46,643 nucleotides of DNA from Candidatus Saccharimonadota bacterium (GCA_022842995.1 JALHOM010000006.1:19459-66101), one strand, 5' to 3'; numbered from the stretch's first letter, positions 24,060 through 36,471 are shown. A program made the numbers and translations. Notes: generated from the letters alone by a model not told the origin.

Positions 24060-24602
24060 ATGTCAAAAAGATACGATTCTAAAAAACACTGGTACGCCAT
24101 CCATACCTATAGTGGCTACGAAGAGAAGGTTGCTGAAAGTATTCGCCAACGAGCCGAGAGTCTCGATATGGGAGATAAGATCTTTGACGTCCTGGTACCT
24201 AAAGAGAAGATGATAGAAATCAAGAACGGCAAACGCAAAGTCGTCGAAAAGAAGATTTTTCAAGGCTACGTACTGGTTCAGATGAAGCTTTCTGAGGATG
24301 CATGGTACATTGTGCGAAACACACCCAACGTCACTGGATTTGTCGGTACGGGCATCGACCCTACCCCGGTTAGCGATGACGAGATGGAGAAAATCAGCAA
24401 ACGCATGGGGCTCGAGCAGCCAAAACACAAGATAGATTTTTCTGTCGGCGAAGTTGTGAGCATTACAGACGGACCATTTAAGGGCTTCGACGGCTCCATT
24501 AGCGAAATTGACCCTACTAAAGGCAAGATCAAAGTCTTGGTCAACATGTTCGGCCGAGAAACACCGGTAGAACTCGACAGTCTCCAGGTCAAAAAAGTCT
24601 AG
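24060..24602 (+). CDS. nusG: Transcription termination/antitermination factor NusG
   Basis: WYAIHTYSGYEEKVAESIRQRAE, FQGYVLVQMKLSEDAWYIVRNTPNVTGFVG, KOW region GPFKGFDGSISEIDPTKGKIKVLVNMFGRETPVELD. Confidence 0.97.
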   Translation: MSKRYDSKKHWYAIHTYSGYEEKVAESIRQRAESLDMGDKIFDVLVPKEKMIEIKNGKRKVVEKKIFQGYVLVQMKLSEDAWYIVRNTPNVTGFVGTGIDPTPVSDDEMEKISKRMGLEQPKHKIDFSVGEVVSITDGPFKGFDGSISEIDPTKGKIKVLVNMFGRETPVELDSLQVKKV

Positions 24603-24677: not shown

Positions 24678-25409
24678 ATGATAAATCCTAATTCTCAACC
24701 CACATTTCCTAGTATTACCGAAGGGCATTATTATGACTCCCGCAGCCTCTGGCGAAGATGCATTGTTACTACGCTGGCAGGTTTACTATCAACAGCAATG
24801 CAGCCTGCTAAACTAGATGCGATTCCGCGGCCTGTTGACTCGTCGCAGAGAGGACAGGAGCCCCCGGACCCTATGGGCAATCTTTGTGCAATCCCAGACG
24901 GCTATAGGCCTATCGGCGACTATACTAGAACCAACTCAGACACAGTAAAAGGTGTTGATACACACATTAAGGTTCTCGGCATGCCCCCACGTATCCTGAG
25001 GCCAAAAAGACGATTAGGCCCCAATTTTATACAGAATATTCCAGGTCGCATTACCCTACGCGGTTCAACAGAGGCACTTTCAAAAATTCAGAGTCTGGAA
25101 GTTTTCTCGTGTCAACGATTTGAACCAGTAGATAGTCGTAAGGCAATCTATTCTGCGCCAGTTCGGAAGGCATCTATAAATGACTATCAGGACATTCAGA
25201 ACGGTATTCGTGGATCGATTGTAATGAGAGAAAGATCGCTCGAACTGAACCTGGCTCCTACCAAAATGAAGTGCGTAGGACTCAGGGGTAGATATTTCCC
25301 AGCCTCCGGGATCGCAGCCGCATTTAGATTTTTCGATGACCCACTTATTTATGTGACAAAAACATATATAGACAGATCTTATCCGACGGGACTCATTATT
25401 CGCTGCTAG
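24678..25409 (+). CDS. Secreted protein of unknown function (P2)
   Basis: Signal-like CIVTTLAGLLSTAM; KMKCVGLRGRYFPASGIAAAFRFF aligns by eye with P4 TIKCRLSDRDRYFMAGVSLSLIYV. Confidence 0.65.
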   Translation: MINPNSQPTFPSITEGHYYDSRSLWRRCIVTTLAGLLSTAMQPAKLDAIPRPVDSSQRGQEPPDPMGNLCAIPDGYRPIGDYTRTNSDTVKGVDTHIKVLGMPPRILRPKRRLGPNFIQNIPGRITLRGSTEALSKIQSLEVFSCQRFEPVDSRKAIYSAPVRKASINDYQDIQNGIRGSIVMRERSLELNLAPTKMKCVGLRGRYFPASGIAAAFRFFDDPLIYVTKTYIDRSYPTGLIIRC

Positions 25410-25564
25410 TCCCTGTGCTCATGCTTGGCTCTTGTTTGAATCGACTAGACCTCGTTTCTCAGGTCCTCAAAGTTTGTCCGTCATACGATAATTTAAGCTG
25501 CTCATTCGGAAGAGGCCCTCTCCGATTTATCAATCGAAATATCGGGTGGGGGGGTATTGATCGG

Positions 25565-26407
25565 TTAACGTCGAAGCTGAGGGGTTGGCTGGGGATAACC
25601 GCTAACAATTGGGCGCACAACTTTGTTCTTACGAACGAAAAGAGGATCTTCGGAAACCTGGCTTGGTGAATGAGGCCCAACCCATGCACGCGTACAGTTT
25701 AATGACGTGCTAGGGAATAACGAGCTGTAATTCACTGCCAGACCCAAGCCTGCTACTGCAGTCAAACTGCCACAAAGCATGTCGCGTCTAATTCCAGTAT
25801 CTTGGTCGTAGGCGACTAGTACGATTTTGCCCCTATTCTTTGGTTCGGCCTTTACAGGTTTACCGTTTCGGTCTGGCGTACGGTTAGCATGGAAAGCATA
25901 CACTTCTCTTCCTAGCAGCAGGGCCGACCCAGTGGCCAATACATAGCGACCGTATTTCAACCTAGGTGGCATAGGCGGTGGCGGAGTTGAAGTATTGTTA
26001 CGGGCAAAGGGATTATCTATAGTAGGTAACTCTATAGGAGGTGATCCAGACTGTCTCCAGAGCACATATCCTCCTCCGATGATCAGCGGTCCTACTGGAC
26101 CAGTTGGAGATAATAAACCTACAAGGCTCTGAGCAGCTCTCTCCTTGGCAGGTTCTGGTGCGGTTTCGGTGCTACCACCGGTTATGGACCCTCTATCAAT
26201 TGTGATGGGCTTGTTTGCTTGGCCCGTTTGAGCACCGTGAAGATTGGGAACTGCAAATGCAGCAGCAAAACTTGCAACTGCTATTGCAGTAAGACGTTGT
26301 AAGGTATGGGTCCGAACAGTTGTCGGTACGCCTTCATGAGTACGTTGCTCATGAGGTGCTCGTTGTTCTGGTTTTCTTCCTTGATTATTGGTGGCACTAC
26401 GTAACAT
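25565..26407 (-). CDS. Predicted membrane/secreted protein, Pro/Arg-rich, unknown function (P7)
   Basis: Hydrophobic segments AVASFAAAFAVPN, GPLIIGGGYVLW, LATGSALLLGREV; Pro-rich STPPPPMPPR. Confidence 0.6.
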   Translation of the reverse strand: MLRSATNNQGRKPEQRAPHEQRTHEGVPTTVRTHTLQRLTAIAVASFAAAFAVPNLHGAQTGQANKPITIDRGSITGGSTETAPEPAKERAAQSLVGLLSPTGPVGPLIIGGGYVLWRQSGSPPIELPTIDNPFARNNTSTPPPPMPPRLKYGRYVLATGSALLLGREVYAFHANRTPDRNGKPVKAEPKNRGKIVLVAYDQDTGIRRDMLCGSLTAVAGLGLAVNYSSLFPSTSLNCTRAWVGPHSPSQVSEDPLFVRKNKVVRPIVSGYPQPTPQLRR

Positions 26408-26605
26408 AATTTGTCCTAAAAAAGTTATTTATTCAAGCATTTATATAGCTAGCTTGACGAGGATGCAAGAAAAATATTTTTTGACAACGTTCTGAATGGT
26501 TACTCCAAGTAGTTATTCTGTTGTAGAAAATGGGACAGCCTTGTATACGGAGTATCGGAATTGCTAAGCTTGAATTTATTTTAAAAGCCAATTAAGCAAA
26601 ACTTT

Positions 26606-27355
26606 ATGTCCGAGACAGTACCAAAACAATCACGCAATTATCATTACCGGCCCCCTCGTTCTAAGAGAGTACTCGTCAGGGCTGCTATGTTAACTCCTTT
26701 TCTGATTAGCTTTCAGCCCTCTGATTTATCAGATAAAGCAGCGGCAGCAAGAACCCCTTTATCCGAATCATTTTGCCAGCCAAGCACCCTGTTCGCAGGA
26801 ATGCAGCCAGTAACCCTGTCAATACATGACAACAACTATCCGTTACGAAACATCAGCTTCGGGATAAAAGCGCCCGACAGAGTTCGTGCTTGGCCGCTTA
26901 GACCTGCTCCGGCACAGCATCGTTATTCTCGAGCACTTACCCCTGGCTCTATCGAGTTATCTGGGACTGGTCTTGAACGATTGGCTTATTTTACTGTAAC
27001 AACGTGCTTCGGTCCGATCCCTGCCGGCTATCCACAGGGGGTTGCCCCACCCAGAGAATATAGAGTTAGGCGAACTTATTGCAATGAGATAATGCCCCCA
27101 TCAATACTTAATACAAGCTGCCAGGGTTACTTTAATCCGTATTTCGCTTATCAGCGTATCGGCAACCAGCAAATCCGCAAAAAGACATGTCTCCCTGGTA
27201 GAATCCAGGCATCGTCTCTAACAGGAATCCAAGTTTCGGCTGGGCTAGTACGATTGCCAGAAGCCAGTTCTAGTTCGCTAGGTCCAGTAATTCCAGTTCA
27301 CCTACGGTCAACTATAAAACGCGATGACACGGCCAACTGCCTCGTGAGAATCTAA
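26606..27355 (+). CDS. Secreted Cys-containing protein of unknown function (P3)
   Basis: N-terminal basic plus hydrophobic segment; PGSIELSGTGLERLAYFTVTTC motif. Confidence 0.65.
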   Translation: MSETVPKQSRNYHYRPPRSKRVLVRAAMLTPFLISFQPSDLSDKAAAARTPLSESFCQPSTLFAGMQPVTLSIHDNNYPLRNISFGIKAPDRVRAWPLRPAPAQHRYSRALTPGSIELSGTGLERLAYFTVTTCFGPIPAGYPQGVAPPREYRVRRTYCNEIMPPSILNTSCQGYFNPYFAYQRIGNQQIRKKTCLPGRIQASSLTGIQVSAGLVRLPEASSSSLGPVIPVHLRSTIKRDDTANCLVRI

Positions 27356-27393
27356 ATGCAGATTAGATAAATTTAATGAAGTCAGGTTAGCTT

Positions 27394-28113
27394 ATGCACC
27401 CAGAAAGAATTAAACCAAGGTTCAGCACCCTACTAGCAGCTGGTCTCGCGTGTGGAGCCGGGATCAACCCCGGCTTAGGTGTCGCGATAAGCGGAGTGAT
27501 GACGCCGGAGACCGCGAGAATAGCAACCGGCTGTTTTCCGAATACTCAATTTCGAGACTTAGATGTTCGTCTCGGGACGGACAGCACTGTTCCATTGCTT
27601 GGCGCCAGCGTGATAAAGACAATAGGCGGCCCTTCAATTTTCGGGACTAGGCCGTCTATCAAAACAGCCGCACTATCCGGGCCATCCGTGGTCGAGATCA
27701 ATGACTTCTCTAGGGTTCATGGAAGTGGCATCTCGCAAATAGCCAGAGTAGAAGCCAGGTCGTATTTGGCAATATATCCAAAGAACATGATACCCGGAGC
27801 TGACGTTAAGCCAGTGTGCTTGCCGTCAAGAAACCCGGCAGTGATTACTAGAGGAAACCCAAGATGGCGGGACACTAAGATCACTTTGACATCAACAGTG
27901 CCTACTATTAAATGCAGGCTCTCAGACAGAGATCGTTACTTTATGGCTGGGGTTTCACTTAGCCTCATCTATGTTCGGGGCCAACCCGACAATCCATTTA
28001 GGTTCGGGTTTCATATCAATGACGCAGGGCCATTAACAACATTTTGCCGACCGATGTATTCCAGGGCTGAATTACAGAGAATACGAGATGACCCACTTAC
28101 CAAAAAGCGGTAA
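27394..28113 (+). CDS. Secreted Cys-containing protein of unknown function (P4)
   Basis: Signal-like TLLAAGLACGAGINPGLGVAISG; VHGSGISQIARVEARSY; KC..L..RYF..G motif shared with P2. Confidence 0.65.
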   Translation: MHPERIKPRFSTLLAAGLACGAGINPGLGVAISGVMTPETARIATGCFPNTQFRDLDVRLGTDSTVPLLGASVIKTIGGPSIFGTRPSIKTAALSGPSVVEINDFSRVHGSGISQIARVEARSYLAIYPKNMIPGADVKPVCLPSRNPAVITRGNPRWRDTKITLTSTVPTIKCRLSDRDRYFMAGVSLSLIYVRGQPDNPFRFGFHINDAGPLTTFCRPMYSRAELQRIRDDPLTKKR

Positions 28114-28262
28114 CATTCGGTGTCAATAGTCCTTGAGGTTATGCAATGTTGTATTTTTACCTACATTGTCTAAGATAATACCGAACACTAATTGAGCAAT
28201 ATCTATTTACATTGCGCAACTATGTTTGGTAGTGTGAGGAAATTATTTTACAAAGGATTATT

Positions 28263-29231
28263 ATGAGACACAATGGTCAGAAATTACCGGTAAAATTAGT
28301 CCGCGTTGCAGCCGCAGCCGGATTAGCTGTGCCTTTCGTCCCAGTAGCAGGTGATAAGGTCGGTGAAATGTTCCCTGGGCAACAGACGCCTGCCCTTGAA
28401 CAAGCAGTTAATCCTGCTGCTGAGGCAGCTTCGAGACAGAGAACTATCGTCAAGACCAAAACAATTTGTATCGGTGCAGGAACTCATTTGTTTAGTACGC
28501 GTGCGGCTATCAACAATAGAGCCGGGGATGCAGGGGTCACTGAATCGCAAGCCACGGTCAATGCCGTTGTCCGAGGAGCAAGAAACCAAAGGCAAGATTA
28601 TTACGTCAGAACTGCACCTGGGCGACAAGATTTAGTAAAGAGGTGGTTTACATCGCTAAACATTGCGGGTCAAGAACCAAACATCACAAACGGCCCCTGT
28701 TCGCTCAGAGACTCAGAGACAGGAACTAGGCTTCGCCCCGACACGCCAGCTACTCAAACATTTCCAAAAAAACTGGTCAGAGACGTCAACGAAGATGGTT
28801 CAGCTGTTTTTGCAGATGTCGCAGCCCTGAGCACTTCTTGCGATATCTATTCTGGGGGCACTCCTAAAGCAACAGTTGAAGTGACTCTTAATACCAATAC
28901 GTCAAGAAGAGTCACCGGACTTAGGCTTGGATTTCATGATCCAACGAGATACTTCCCGCCATTCGATCTATTAACAGGCAACCAAGCTGCCCTTCCTGCA
29001 TGGTCAGACATAGCAAATCCAGCGCTTCAAAGAGACAAATTTAACCAAATTAGTGTTAGATACGGCGAGTTGACACTCCCTAGGTTTGGGGATGTCGTAT
29101 TATCCCTTACTGTCATCAATCCATCAGGAGGAGCCAGGTTCGTCCATATCGGACAACGGCTTGATGCAGAAAGTTGTAGCTTCGCCTCGGGCAATACTGG
29201 CACCAACAACCAACCACCGGAATTCGAGTAA
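28263..29231 (+). CDS. Secreted protein of unknown function (P5)
   Basis: Signal-like LVRVAAAAGLAVPFVPVAG; four or more Cys; GLRLGFHDPTRYFPPFD. Confidence 0.65.
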   Translation: MRHNGQKLPVKLVRVAAAAGLAVPFVPVAGDKVGEMFPGQQTPALEQAVNPAAEAASRQRTIVKTKTICIGAGTHLFSTRAAINNRAGDAGVTESQATVNAVVRGARNQRQDYYVRTAPGRQDLVKRWFTSLNIAGQEPNITNGPCSLRDSETGTRLRPDTPATQTFPKKLVRDVNEDGSAVFADVAALSTSCDIYSGGTPKATVEVTLNTNTSRRVTGLRLGFHDPTRYFPPFDLLTGNQAALPAWSDIANPALQRDKFNQISVRYGELTLPRFGDVVLSLTVINPSGGARFVHIGQRLDAESCSFASGNTGTNNQPPEFE

Positions 29232-29373
29232 ATGGACACCAGTCGGATTTGATTTACAACCGGGAAAAGTGTAAAATATTTAGGTTACGCACTTCTGTTC
29301 TTAAAAGAACGTTTATTAAAGTTTATAAGAAAAGGGAAGGAGCCCTTCGAGCTAGCTCAGGGCGAAATTACTT

Positions 29374-29802
29374 ATGGAAGCAAAAAAAGTACGTGCCAAT
29401 CTTAAAATGAAGATTCCGGCCGGAAAAGCAAGTGCTGCTCCACCAGTTGGTAGCACACTCGGTCAATACGGTGTTAATATGATGGATTTTATCCAGCCAT
29501 TTAACGACCAAACAAAAGAAATGCGCGGCACAGTAACTGCGCATATCACTATTTTTGACGACAGAACTATGGAGTTCCGTGTTGTGTCAGAGCCAACCGA
29601 CGACCTTATCCGAGCCAAACTCGGTATTCAAAAAGGTTCTGGTAAGCCAAACAGCGAAAAAGTCAGCAAGAAGCTGAGCCAAGCTGATCTAAATGCCATT
29701 GCAGAAGCCAAGGCAGCAGACATGAATGCCGATGACATAGAGGCTGTCAAGAAAATGGTAGCCGGAACAGCCCGCAGCATGGGCGTGGAAGTCGAAGGTT
29801 AA
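29374..29802 (+). CDS. rplK: 50S ribosomal protein L11
   Basis: ANLKMKIPAGKASAAPPVGSTLGQYGVNMMDFIQPFNDQT; GTARSMGVEVEG. Confidence 0.97.
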   Translation: MEAKKVRANLKMKIPAGKASAAPPVGSTLGQYGVNMMDFIQPFNDQTKEMRGTVTAHITIFDDRTMEFRVVSEPTDDLIRAKLGIQKGSGKPNSEKVSKKLSQADLNAIAEAKAADMNADDIEAVKKMVAGTARSMGVEVEG

Positions 29803-29810
29803 TTCAAAAG

Positions 29811-30029
29811 ATGGGAAACCCGGAACGACCCGAAAAGATTATCGTTCCTGGGCTTGATGGAACTTTCTACGAAGTTGACCTGAAAAGACTTGCCGAACTA
29901 TATGGAACCGAAGCTCCATATGAGGAAAACACAGTGGAAATCGGCGATCCAATAGAGTTTGAACCGCCAGCAAAACGAAAGATAACTGAGGACCCGGTAC
30001 CTGAACCAGGCAGTAAATTTAACATTTAA
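29811..30029 (+). CDS. Small acidic hypothetical protein between rplK and rplA
   Basis: 72 aa ORF closely spaced between rplK and rplA. Confidence 0.55.
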   Translation: MGNPERPEKIIVPGLDGTFYEVDLKRLAELYGTEAPYEENTVEIGDPIEFEPPAKRKITEDPVPEPGSKFNI

Positions 30030-30122
30030 TTAACACGTGGGACCCGACTTCGCTAAAGCTACGACGGGCTTGCCCGATTCGCTCGAAGCCAAGAAGGGGT
30101 TTGAACCACGAAAGGATATAGA

Positions 30123-31145
30123 ATGAGCAAGGAAGCTATAGAGAAAAAAGACGAAAGTTTAAAGATTAAAGATGAAAGTCCAAAGTCTGAGGACGAAAGT
30201 ACTCAGACGAATAACGAAAGCCTAGAGATTAAAGAGGAAGCTCAAGTCACTGAAGCATCTTCGGAAGCTCACGATACAACAGAGGCCGAAACAAAAGAAG
30301 TAAAAGCTACTGCGAAGGCGGGCAAGAGAAGCGAAAAAGGCATCAAAGAAGCTGAAGAAAAGGTTGCCAAGATCGAGAAGCAAAAACATGCTGCTGAAGC
30401 AAAAGCCGAAGAAGCCGAGAAGCCAAAGCAACACCGCAACCCAACACGTTCACGACTGGATCGACGTGGTAAAAAGTTCAAAGAAGTTGCCAAACTCGTA
30501 GAAGTAGACAAACTCTACACCTTCAAAGAAGCTGTTGAGCTATCTCTCAAAACCTCTACAACCAAGTTTGACGCTACCGTCGAGCTCCACGTTAGACTGA
30601 ACGTTGATCCACGTCAAGCCGACCAAAACTTGCGAGACAACCTTGTTTTGCCAGCTGGTACCGGTAAGACCGTGAGAGTAGCCGTATTCGCCGACGAAGA
30701 CATTGCCAAAGATGCCAAGAAAGCTGGAGCCGACATTGCCGGTGCCGATGACTTTTTGAAGCAGCTAGACAAAGGCGAGATCAACTTTGATATTTTGATC
30801 GCAACTCCTAATGTTATGGCTAAGTTAAGTAAATACGCCCGTGTTCTGGGACCAAAAGGTCTCATGCCTAACCCAAAGAGTGGCACCGTAACAACCGATG
30901 TTGCGAAGGCCGTATCGTCAGCCAAAGCTGGTCGTGTCGAATACCGTGTCGATAGCACAGGTATCGTACACCTCGGCATCGGTAAGGTAAGTTTTGGAGC
31001 CGCTAAAATCAATCAAAACCTTGACGCAGTGATTGCCAGCATCAAGAACAACAAGCCGAGCAGCATTAAAGGTTCGTACGTCAAGTCTATCACCCTGAGC
31101 ACCTCGATGGGTCCAGGCATAAAAGTTAGCCCAAGCGAAATCTAA
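30123..31145 (+). CDS. rplA: 50S ribosomal protein L1 with approximately 110-aa charged N-terminal extension
   Basis: L1 core from KKFKEVAKLVEVDKLYTFKEAVEL..., GPKGLMPNPKSGTVT; N-terminal KDESLKIKDESPKSEDES repeats. Confidence 0.95.
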   Translation: MSKEAIEKKDESLKIKDESPKSEDESTQTNNESLEIKEEAQVTEASSEAHDTTEAETKEVKATAKAGKRSEKGIKEAEEKVAKIEKQKHAAEAKAEEAEKPKQHRNPTRSRLDRRGKKFKEVAKLVEVDKLYTFKEAVELSLKTSTTKFDATVELHVRLNVDPRQADQNLRDNLVLPAGTGKTVRVAVFADEDIAKDAKKAGADIAGADDFLKQLDKGEINFDILIATPNVMAKLSKYARVLGPKGLMPNPKSGTVTTDVAKAVSSAKAGRVEYRVDSTGIVHLGIGKVSFGAAKINQNLDAVIASIKNNKPSSIKGSYVKSITLSTSMGPGIKVSPSEI

Positions 31146-31216
31146 GTATCAACCCACAAACATAGCTAGGGTACTCAAAACGTGCATCCTATTTTGTTGC
31201 ACGGAAAGCAAACAAG

Positions 31217-31870
31217 GTGTACATTTGGTTGATTATGAGATTCAATTTACCCCCCCAATCAAACCCAGCCCGCATAAGCAGACCTGTAGTCTGGGCTGTA
31301 ATAATTTCAGCTTTAAGTCCTCATCAAGTTCTAGGGCAGGTTGTGGACAACTTCTGCAAACCAATCGCCCCTCAATCCGACATGCATACTTGGCCAATAT
31401 TCCAACAAGGGCATTATGAAGTAATCTGTCCGCCAGAAGATGTATATCGTATAGGATCACCCGCCGTACGAACGGTTACTATTCAAAAAACCGGCATAAC
31501 AACATCATTCGTAGAACCTTCCCGACCTACCGAAATATATTGCGGAGGTAGCGCCACCCCCTATGTAGAGCGGATAACTACTGTAACCTGCATGGAATTA
31601 AAGCGACAAGCGAGGGGCGCGAAGCCAAGACTAGCATATAGCTCGGTGAGGAGGGACACAATTTATAGGCCGCTTGACGGATGGAGTGCTCGACCATTCC
31701 CAATTGCAGACGGCAGCTTTGGTCCAAGAAAAAAATGTCACCCGATACCTGCTGAAAGAGAACGCTACCTTGCCCGGAGCGGGGAATACCGAATATTCAA
31801 GTTCTCAGGTTCTGAACCGCCAAAATACACAAATTCATTCATTACAAGAACGAGAGTAGTTTGGTGTTGA
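31217..31870 (+). CDS. Secreted Cys-containing protein of unknown function (P6); alternative ATG at 31235
   Basis: Signal-like VVWAVIISALSPHQVLGQ; YCGGSATPYVERITTVTC; six or more Cys. Confidence 0.65.
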   Translation: MYIWLIMRFNLPPQSNPARISRPVVWAVIISALSPHQVLGQVVDNFCKPIAPQSDMHTWPIFQQGHYEVICPPEDVYRIGSPAVRTVTIQKTGITTSFVEPSRPTEIYCGGSATPYVERITTVTCMELKRQARGAKPRLAYSSVRRDTIYRPLDGWSARPFPIADGSFGPRKKCHPIPAERERYLARSGEYRIFKFSGSEPPKYTNSFITRTRVVWC

Positions 31871-31971: not shown

Positions 31972-32685
31972 TTGGGTGTTTATAGTAATATTGACATCAG
32001 GAAAGCGATCAAGGACGGCCACATTGTTTGCGTCCCGTTTAATGATAAACACATCAGTCACGCCAGTCTCGACGTGACACTTGGCTACTACTATTACCGA
32101 ACCGGGCGGGCTCCACGAGGTTATATCTATAACCCATTTGATGAAGTTTCGGTCAAAAAGTATTTTGGTGAAGTCCAGCAAGCCGTTCCGCACCAAGACT
32201 GGTGTGCCGAAAACGGCGTTCGGTTGCTCGAAGGTATCCCGGCCGATCATCCTGTTATCCCCCTCAAACCGGGCGAGAGAATCTTGGCTCACACCCACGA
32301 ATTCTTTGGCATTAAACCGCCAGGGGCTTACGAGGTTAAATCGCGCTCCAGTTGGGGCAGAAACGGCATAGCCGTCTGTTTTGACGCCGGCTGGGTAGAT
32401 CCTGGCTACATAAATCGGCTAACGCTTGAGATCTACAACCTCAACGAACACGAAACGGTTCTTTTGCCCGTTGGCGAACGCATCGCTCAGGCTGTCTTTT
32501 TGGAAACAGGCGAAGTCGAAGGCAACTACGGTGAAGGGCGAGACGATGGTATGAGCGGGAAGTATCAGCTTGGCACAAACCTCGACGACTTAATCTCTAA
32601 CTGGACTCCAGCACAAATGTTGCCAAAGGCCTACAAGGACACTCGTAGCCTCCCAGAAACGATTAAAGGTTTAAAAGCACGATGA
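31972..32685 (+). CDS. dcd: dCTP deaminase
   Basis: ISHASLDVTLGYYYYR, YEVKSRSSWGRNGIAVCFDAGWVDPGYINRLTLEIYN, GERIAQAVF; TTG start as given. Confidence 0.9.
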   Translation: MGVYSNIDIRKAIKDGHIVCVPFNDKHISHASLDVTLGYYYYRTGRAPRGYIYNPFDEVSVKKYFGEVQQAVPHQDWCAENGVRLLEGIPADHPVIPLKPGERILAHTHEFFGIKPPGAYEVKSRSSWGRNGIAVCFDAGWVDPGYINRLTLEIYNLNEHETVLLPVGERIAQAVFLETGEVEGNYGEGRDDGMSGKYQLGTNLDDLISNWTPAQMLPKAYKDTRSLPETIKGLKAR

Positions 32686-35012
32686 GCCCGACTATTGACC
32701 CTTCTCGAAATGGATTATTCCTGGTAATCGACGGCGCCGATGGCTCTGGCAAAAGCACTCAATATCGTCAATTAGTAGATAGATTAACCACCCTCGGCTA
32801 CGACGTAGATCTGATCAAGTTTCCTCAATACGACGAAGAATCTAGCTATTTCGTCAGGCAGTACTTAAATGGCGAGTACGGCAAAGCAGATGATGTTGGC
32901 CCCTACACAGGTTCGATATTCTATGCTCTCGACCGCTACGCCGCTTCCAAGCGGATATCATCGGCACTGGCACAAGGAAAAGTCGTCATCGCTGATAGAT
33001 ACACCAGCTCAAACATGGCCCACCAGGGGTTGAAGTTTGATAGCGACGAAGAGCGAAATGGCTATTTTTTATGGCTCGAAGCAATCGAGTTCAAGATGCT
33101 TGAAATCCCCCGGCCTGATATGACAGTCGTACTAAGGGTACCTCCTGAAATTTCTCAAAAACTGATAGAAAACCGCGAACAAGCAAAAGATATTCACGAG
33201 CTCGACCCAGATCATGCTAAAAAAGCAGTTCATGTCTATGACACCTTGTGCAGGCTTTTCCCAGAAGACTTTAAACAGCTAGACTGCGTACGCGGCGGCG
33301 AACTCATGAGTATCGACGAAATCGGTGATCTTGTCTGGAACACGGTGGAGCCGATGTTGCCAACGCCAAAATCGTATTATCCTAATCAAAATTCATCAGG
33401 ACTGGCGTCAACTAACCCCCCATTAAATAACGTATTCTTGTCTGAAGAAAACGGGGTGCTGTCCATCACCGAAGCCGGCCGTCAAGAGCTCGCCAAATAC
33501 ATTACTAACACCACTGGTAGCGTCTACGCCTTTAATGACCAGCTCAGCGCCACAACTATCGCAGCCGCTATGGCGCGCCTAAGCCGGCGCGGTGATGATA
33601 TGCGCATCACTATCCTGGATGAATTTTTAGGCGAAGCTGGTAAAGACGATGACCTGTTAAAGCGAGTTATCACCGCTTACGGCGACGATTCCGTACAGCA
33701 ATTGACCGCCAAGCATGTCGTTGTCGAAGGCGCCAGTAACTTGCTAACCAAGAAATTGGAGTGGGGAAGACTGGCATCGTACCTCGAGCAGTCGACGCGC
33801 TACATCTATTTCGACCAAAAAGACAACGCCGGGAAGTATAAGTACTTTACTCCTGACTACTTACCATCTGAGCTGACAGACGAGTACAACCGACGGATGG
33901 ACTTCATTTTCGAGACCTACTCCGAGCTCGTTCATAAGCTGACAGATTATGTCCGAAAAGAGTCAAAAGTACCTCTCAAAGATCAAGATGGAGCCTGGAA
34001 ATCGGCCACCCGTGCGCAGGCCTGTGACGCTGCACGGCCAGTCTTGCCCGTGGCCACGAAGTCAACAGTCGGCATCTTTGCATCCGGCCAAGCCCTGGAA
34101 AGCTTGATAATGCATTTGCTCAGCGATGATCTACCAGAAGCCCGCCAAACAGGACAAGACTTGCTTCATGAATCACGGAAGATTCTGTCGACCTTCCTCG
34201 AAAGAGCAGACAAACCCGATAGAGGCGGCGCCTGGCAAGCCTACCGATCTGAAACAGCCAATAACGTCGCCGACCTTGCCAATCAGTATCTTCCACAAGC
34301 CTACACCGGCTTAAGCAGCCGAGCTCCAGTTACTTTGACTTCCTATTGGCCTAAAAATGAATTCGACATAATTCCCGATATCTTATACGAGCACAGTGAG
34401 CTCTCGAAACAGGAAATCAAGGATATAGTCGCCAACTTCCCGTACATGCAGAAACTTGAGATTCTGAATTCCTTCATCGGTAAACGCCTCAACCGTCGAC
34501 AACGTCCGTCACGTGCCTTTGAGCAAGTGCATTACTCTTGGGACATTTTGTGCGACTATGGCATCTTCAGAGACCTCCAAAGGCACCGCATGGTAGACGA
34601 CCTCGCCTGGCAGAAATTATCTCCGCGCTACGGCTATGAAACCCCTGAACTCGTGTCGCGAGCTGGCCTAGACGACTATTTTGAGGCCTGTTTTGACGAA
34701 AGTTTGAAGCTCTATAGCTCACTCCAAGCCGCCGGATACGAGCTTGAGGCACAGTACGCAACCTTGCTTGGGCACAAAATGCGCTGGAAAGTCACCTTTA
34801 ACGCCCGCGAAGCGTACCAGATGATCGAACTCAGAACTTCACCCCAAGGACACCCTGGCTACCGCAAATTAGCTCAAGAAATGTACGACAAAATCCACGA
34901 AGTTCACCCCATCATCGCTACCGGCATGAAGTTCGTCAACCAAGACGAAGACCCAGAGCTATCGCGCCTTGCAGCAGAACGCTACACCCAATTCAAACTC
35001 AACCAAAAATAG
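32682..35012 (+). CDS. tmk-thyX: Thymidylate kinase - ThyX (tandem-domain FAD-dependent thymidylate synthase) fusion
   Basis: Tmk: LFLVIDGADGSGKSTQ, DRYAASK..VIADRYTSSNMAHQG; ThyX: YGDDSVQQL, LQRHRMVDDLAWQKLSPRYGYETPEL, NAREAYQMIELRTSPQGHPGYR; no internal stop; ATGA overlap with dcd. Confidence 0.88.
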   Translation: MSPTIDPSRNGLFLVIDGADGSGKSTQYRQLVDRLTTLGYDVDLIKFPQYDEESSYFVRQYLNGEYGKADDVGPYTGSIFYALDRYAASKRISSALAQGKVVIADRYTSSNMAHQGLKFDSDEERNGYFLWLEAIEFKMLEIPRPDMTVVLRVPPEISQKLIENREQAKDIHELDPDHAKKAVHVYDTLCRLFPEDFKQLDCVRGGELMSIDEIGDLVWNTVEPMLPTPKSYYPNQNSSGLASTNPPLNNVFLSEENGVLSITEAGRQELAKYITNTTGSVYAFNDQLSATTIAAAMARLSRRGDDMRITILDEFLGEAGKDDDLLKRVITAYGDDSVQQLTAKHVVVEGASNLLTKKLEWGRLASYLEQSTRYIYFDQKDNAGKYKYFTPDYLPSELTDEYNRRMDFIFETYSELVHKLTDYVRKESKVPLKDQDGAWKSATRAQACDAARPVLPVATKSTVGIFASGQALESLIMHLLSDDLPEARQTGQDLLHESRKILSTFLERADKPDRGGAWQAYRSETANNVADLANQYLPQAYTGLSSRAPVTLTSYWPKNEFDIIPDILYEHSELSKQEIKDIVANFPYMQKLEILNSFIGKRLNRRQRPSRAFEQVHYSWDILCDYGIFRDLQRHRMVDDLAWQKLSPRYGYETPELVSRAGLDDYFEACFDESLKLYSSLQAAGYELEAQYATLLGHKMRWKVTFNAREAYQMIELRTSPQGHPGYRKLAQEMYDKIHEVHPIIATGMKFVNQDEDPELSRLAAERYTQFKLNQK

Positions 35013-36265: not shown

Positions 36266-36294
36266 TTGTAAATAACAAAGAAACACAGTATAAT
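36266..36294 (+). promoter_or_regulatory. Sigma70-type promoter of rplJ-rplL
   Basis: TTGTAA (36266-36271) - 17 nt - TATAAT (36289-36294). Confidence 0.75.
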
Positions 36295-36302
36295 ACTACC
36301 TA

Positions 36303-36420
36303 GTTTCCGAAGACAGTGACGTCGGGGCAACCCGCTTGAAAATGTCACCGAGGCACACAATCTGTTTTATAGAATTGTATGTATTTATCGTCTTTGGTTA
36401 CTAGCCAAAGATTTTTTAAT
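36303..36420 (+). promoter_or_regulatory. L10-type r-protein leader with intrinsic terminator/attenuator
   Basis: ttccgaagacag...caccgaggcaca matches L10 leader pattern; TCTTTGG-ttactag-CCAAAGA-TTTTTT at 36391-36418 well upstream of rplJ. Confidence 0.7.
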
Positions 36421-36471
36421 TTTAAGGGTCGATAATCTTTGGATACGTAACATAACGAGGAAATTATAGTT

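Follow-up and report, generated by a model that had tools for sequence, protein, structure and literature searches.

Predicted secreted, cysteine-containing ORFans at the nusG-rplK junction of a Saccharibacteria genome

Why should a ribosomal protein operon of a Saccharibacteria genome (1.11 Mb, 30 contigs) be interrupted by genes for proteins with signal-like N-termini, and are these genes one family with a role in translation or something else? The stretch of DNA analysed here, called the window, is 46,643 nucleotides long and covers positions 19459-66101 of contig C6. A preliminary description had placed secreted-type ORFs inside the nusG-rplK-rplA region, with one of them (P6) after rplA, and both placements were confirmed (Table 1), the nusG-rplK gap measuring 4,774 bp by tblastn. 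Five ORFs occupy this gap (P2, P7, P3, P4 and P5), of which P7 lies on the strand opposite to the others, a point on which the preliminary description was silent; P1 is located 6 kb upstream of nusG. Past P6 the gene order continues with a dCTP-deaminase-like gene and a thymidylate kinase/ThyX-like fusion, both named by reading, and further on with rplJ and rplL. The fusion is found at the same place in most kin, with about 50–62% identity where the alignment is full-length. Among named genomes, NusG was matched best, at 82–89% identity, mostly in Candidatus Saccharibacteria/Saccharimonadales MAGs, and the comparison genomes belonged to the same family (five) or to the order level, none being of the same genus.

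Among about 95 loci compared, this gap was the widest: it was 6–1,300 bp (median 376) in 74 named Saccharibacteria loci and 15–3,140 bp in about 23 kin loci. Measured from stop to stop, the five frames are 332, 287, 256, 248 and 240 codons long, whereas the longest single frame in 300 dinucleotide shuffles of the gap was 223 (mean longest 127). The gap ORFs are therefore genuine and not chance open frames. Codon usage was set aside as a coding test for P2–P6, which score no better than neutral against the host's own bias, a bias too weak to decide. A promoter and terminator scan of the region returned nothing above shuffles.

Table 1. Features of the window, same-type ORFans elsewhere in the genome and sigma-70-like genes in kin; positions without a locus prefix are those of the window.
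Feature	Position	Strand	Description
P1	17508..18305	-	265 aa predicted secreted ORFan, 4 mature Cys; same type, outside the reported interval
secE	23587		start of gene upstream of nusG
nusG	24060..24602	+	left boundary of insertion
P2	24678..25409	+	243 aa predicted secreted ORFan, 4 mature Cys, 75 nt past nusG stop
P7	25565..26407	-	280 aa ORFan, signal-like N-terminus, 2 Cys, two further weakly/moderately hydrophobic segments
P3	26606..27355	+	249 aa predicted secreted ORFan, 6 mature Cys
P4	27394..28113	+	239 aa predicted secreted ORFan, 4 mature Cys
P5	28263..29231	+	322 aa predicted secreted ORFan, 4 mature Cys
Promoter-like site before rplK	29249..29280	+	TTGATT-17-TAAAAT, overlapping TTTACA-16-AATATT; such sites at chance level in the region
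rplK	29374..29802	+	right boundary of insertion
X72	29811..30029	+	72 aa ORFan, 8 nt past rplK stop, rplK-rplA slot, non-secreted
rplA	30123..31145	+	
P6	31217..31870	+	217 aa predicted secreted ORFan, 6 mature Cys; likelier start ATG 31235
Thymidylate kinase/ThyX-like fusion	32682-35012		776-aa ORF, thymidylate kinase fused to ThyX-like domain (by reading)
L10 leader RNA	36289-36426		before rplJ
Same-type ORFan	L056:232-867		just upstream of rplC
Same-type ORFan	L066:82-801		
Same-type ORFan	L067:7567-8250		upstream of nusA/infB
Same-type ORFan	L075:11529-12212		
Same-type ORFan	L158:2102-3148		
Same-type ORFan	L168:17234-17896		
Same-type ORFan	L171:5580-6272		just below Arg cut
Same-type ORFan, lipoprotein-like	L170:8583-9296		
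Sigma-70-like gene in kin	L048:1638-2681		reverse complement of locus
Sigma-70-like gene in kin	L049:1712-2758		reverse complement of locus
Sigma-70-like gene in kin	L135:5922-7007		

From reading the sequences and from a hydrophobicity rule, Sec-type signals were predicted in seven of the seven proteins, P1–P7, each N-terminus having a basic part and a hydrophobic core, with small residues close to where cleavage could plausibly occur, in agreement with the signal-like N-termini described before. A permissive rule flags 27% of genes; here seven ORFans with signal-like N-termini lie within 14.4 kb. In P2, P7 and P3 the hydrophobic core of the signal is preceded by unusually long stretches of about 20–40 residues. 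The earlier impression that most of the proteins have several cysteines and look basic holds for P1–P6, which are cationic and arginine-rich and have 4 or 6 cysteines in the mature part. P7 may, judging from its sequence, be partly membrane-associated or membrane-bound instead of secreted, and is perhaps not a member of the group because of its two cysteines and extra hydrophobic segments.

A VKOR (E 2.5e-41) and two Thioredoxin_4/DsbA-like proteins are encoded in the same genome, and oxidative folding outside the membrane would therefore be available. Both marks of a disulfide-bonded exported protein, an even number of mature cysteines and an oxidative-folding system, were thus found together, the disulfides themselves being putative.

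The seven proteins were then compared with each other. The best BLASTP hit among them had E = 0.46, and an all-vs-all profile comparison with hhalign, one of the checks proposed in the preliminary description, detected no homology (probability at most 3%). In Smith-Waterman comparisons of the mature parts against 100 shuffles the smallest p was 0.02 over 21 pairs, as chance predicts. The motifs thought to be common to P2 and P4, P1 and P3 and others were at chance level (P2/P4 p = 0.17, P1/P3 p = 0.09), and with none of the 21 pairwise comparisons above chance the proposal of a diversified paralogous set found no support. A multiple alignment had no invariant cysteine column, so the cysteines could not be aligned, and AlphaFold2 single-sequence models (pLDDT 32.5 for P4 and 35.0 for P2) were too poor for fold comparison. 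Paralogy was tried by BLASTP, hhalign and shuffled Smith-Waterman, none of which gave anything beyond chance. As far as their sequences tell, P1–P7 appear alike in delivery route and physical chemistry but not in sequence, and paralogy is not demonstrable.

They could still be one hypervariable family with a common small disulfide-bonded fold, driven past detection by duplication and diversifying selection, for instance against host receptors. Size, signal, cysteine pairing and arginine-rich composition are all common to the set, and five to six of the genes are clustered in one place, as such a family would be. We nevertheless regard this as an unlikely account, although one to be kept in mind, given that no pair in the window rose above shuffles, that BLASTP and hhalign were negative, and that the cysteines could not be aligned, the AlphaFold2 models being uninformative.

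Homologues elsewhere were sought at several levels. The preliminary description had recognised no family, and named confident matches to unrelated known families as evidence against its reading; there were none, with no match in Pfam for P2–P7 or in NCBIfam and PHROGs for P1–P7. There was no match in the PDB or in viral contigs for P4 and P5, nor in phages for P1–P6 (P7 was left out of the query). Single-protein queries of P2, P3, P4 and P6 against 197 order genomes each returned no homologue, the best weak hit (P3, 57 aa aligned in a single genome, E 0.0025) being at chance level for that many genomes, and P5 had no homologue in family genomes. P1 and P7 had no match in kin genomes in the one search that covered them there, a less sensitive concatenated query of all seven proteins against 392 order genomes, which found again no more than three of the seven sources from which it was built. 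Six peptides used as patterns against 85,462 genomes, a scan of low sensitivity, found no relative. In the searches run, the ORFans thus had no homologues outside a narrow lineage.

A wider repertoire was looked for in the same genome, using 438 kb including the window and then 320 kb more (together 759 kb, or about 68% of it). To pass the fixed rule a protein needed 180–350 aa, a signal-like N-terminus, no further strong hydrophobic segment, R/(R+K) >= 0.6 and at least two mature cysteines. Eight further ORFans of the same type were found elsewhere in the 759 kb (Table 1), with a Pfam match in none of the eight; these members were chosen partly by eye, and the second sample is small. This brings the set to about 15 ORFans among 634 genes, and seven lie inside 14.4 kb. 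Compared with the genome's proteins, the first 11 ORFans contain 10.0% arginine (vs 4.9%), 3.3% lysine (vs 6.1%) and 2.1% cysteine (vs 0.6%), and their mature parts have a charge of +4 to +13. The number of mature cysteines is even in 15 of 15 ORFans (4, 4, 2, 6, 4, 4, 6, 4, 4, 6 and 2 in the first sample; 4, 2, 2 and 2 in the second, with the lipid-anchor cysteine of L170 excluded), against 92 of 162 (57%) non-membrane genes of the genome. On the second sample the fixed criterion also returned non-members, one with an odd cysteine count (L165:631-1206); a non-ORFan of this sample, fasciclin-like by eye, has three cysteines. A further predicted secreted protein of 259 aa (L169:10358-11137) has a lysozyme/transglycosylase-like stretch by eye (ESR...GLFQIGTYN...NAYLAVWAINEYG) and no Pfam match at E 0.1.

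When the fixed rule was run on the surroundings of nusG in 80 kin loci (1,204 genes), it picked out nothing but cytoplasmic genes flagged in error and one or two cases open to doubt. With the R/(R+K) cut loosened to 0.55, the yield from 400 kb of three kin genomes, of which two belong to the same family, was a single pilin-like protein among 376 genes. An ORFan cluster that is missing from kin could also have come in with a mobile element or phage, or be an artefact of chimeric assembly, but this is very unlikely: phages (P1–P6), PHROGs and viral contigs (P4 and P5) gave no match, no long flanking repeats or integrase were seen, both flanks consist of normal operon genes with a GC content like that of the insertion, and ORFans of the same type occur on other contigs. 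The even cysteine numbers and the genome-wide excess of cysteine and arginine point to selected, exported proteins. On balance we think it rather likely that the ORFans are a genus-private, disulfide-stabilised, cationic secreted repertoire, probably facing the envelope or a host, whose members are not demonstrably paralogous.

The position of the cluster was assessed by comparing the same junction across kin. ORFs of at least 60 aa are present in the nusG-rplK gap of 43 of the 74 named loci, and the 52 ORFs in these 43 loci fall into 49 families at E < 1e-3; all but two (50/52) are on the nusG strand. The first same-strand ORF begins a median of 6.5 nt past the nusG stop (42 loci) and lies within 40 nt in 37 of the 42, which suggests that the slot ORFs are translationally coupled to nusG. 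A second slot, between rplK and rplA, holds 30 ORFs of 28 families in kin (27/30 on the same strand), and those are unrelated to X72, its occupant in the window. Our literature search found no paper that describes the nusG-rplK junction as an ORFan slot.

Several other features of the slot were observed. Two hydrophobic segments, as in small helical-hairpin membrane proteins, occur in sixteen of the 50 slot ORFs coupled to nusG (examples are L076:6142, L086:10546, L106:6894, L115:10545, L120:10545, L132:10540, L151:10545 and L154:10546), and leave-one-out profiles suggest weak kinship among several of them, which may be composition only. A gene of about 350 aa that is sigma-70-like by eye is present in the gap of three kin genomes. 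In several unrelated slot ORFs (L076, L086, L113, L142, L154 and L084) the C-terminus is at or close to QQG, a short distance before rplK; these endings may be the trace of a conserved element, DNA or RNA, in the leader of rplK.

Synteny in the sense of the same genes at the same place in kin was not observed, the junction being filled by unrelated ORFs; the insertion in the window is therefore an extreme filling of a variable slot and not a conserved association. It also differs from the usual occupants in that P2–P6 are longer, predicted to be exported and uncoupled from nusG, P2 being at a distance and P7 on the other strand. Co-location with the translation operon, as described before, is real as a position, while a functional link is probably absent, since kin fill the junction with unrelated small ORFs. 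The link is probably incidental because, besides the variable junction, the strand of P7 and the distance of P2, same-type ORFans lie near rplC, nusA/infB and other genes. That the genes are linked to the ribosomal operon because they regulate translation or take part in it is accordingly highly improbable: position speaks for it, and the signal peptides, the opposite strand of P7, the failure of kin to keep the genes and the presence of same-type genes elsewhere in the genome all speak against it.

A junction that turns over ORFans across the order could also be a tolerant place in which genes arise from non-coding DNA. The ORFans would then be recently born or very young, mostly without a settled function, with a signal-like N-terminus and a near-random composition as what remains. 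By KL, their composition indeed differs less from random translation (0.037) than from the genome's proteins (0.068), and their codon usage is neutral. Frames of 240–332 codons were nevertheless absent from the shuffles, and even cysteine numbers in all ORFans, with the cysteine and arginine excess common across the genome, point to selected, exported proteins; we consider such an origin improbable. Also rather unlikely is a bolder version of the repertoire, in which exported, cationic, disulfide-stabilised proteins would share one sequence-invisible fold and form a genus-private arsenal, diversified in an arms race with bacterial hosts and nursed in a ribosomal junction that serves as a landing site across Saccharimonadales.

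Under the preferred reading, that of a secreted repertoire, each protein would be made with a Sec signal peptide and then leave the cell, Saccharibacteria being assumed monoderm. Outside the membrane, VKOR/DsbA-type enzymes would oxidise the exported protein, the even cysteines would pair as disulfides, and the protein would remain on the cell surface or close to it; there its strong positive charge would help it to bind anionic wall polymers or a host cell. The ORFans would be part of a larger repertoire scattered over the genome, with its densest cluster at the nusG-rplK junction, which across the order would readily gain and lose ORFans. We infer secretion, disulfides and surface or host contact alike, host contact from lifestyle only; such contact is plausible for a Saccharibacterium.

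Secreted ORFans are candidates for the means by which Saccharibacteria make contact with their hosts. Their signature (signal, arginine-rich composition, even cysteines) allows searches and tests that do not depend on homology. In this reduced-genome lineage, moreover, the junctions of a highly conserved operon carry a differing, apparently co-translated small gene in the majority of genomes, which offers a fixed and presumably highly expressed position at which to follow ORFan turnover.

Secreted, cysteine-paired, lineage-private effector-like proteins are known from symbionts and parasites in general. As a working analogy, the ORFans resemble these in being small, predicted to be exported, cysteine-paired and private, with no sequence family.

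Parallels also exist within the Patescibacteria, which are reported to have an unusually high share (53%) of novel membrane/signal-peptide families (PMC10849945) and tens of thousands of unknown clusters at species or genus level, the levels to which most of their lineage-specific unknown clusters belong (PMC9132574). Like the FESNov families (PMC10849945) and AGNOSTOS clusters (PMC9132574), the ORFans are taxonomically restricted, lack domains, have a signal peptide and come from a CPR genome; these catalogues, however, list multi-member families, whereas every one of these ORFans is a singleton, and several of them lie in one ribosomal junction. An MdbA/VKOR disulfide pathway has been described in CPR bacteria (PMC6744442), and this genome likewise combines VKOR and Thioredoxin_4 proteins with even-cysteine exported ORFans; the clients of the described pathway are thought to be pilins, and its link to these ORFans is putative. 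The ORFans probably belong with the Patescibacterial lineage-specific secreted proteins, and what is new is the eight further ORFans of the same type and the lineage-wide slot after nusG.
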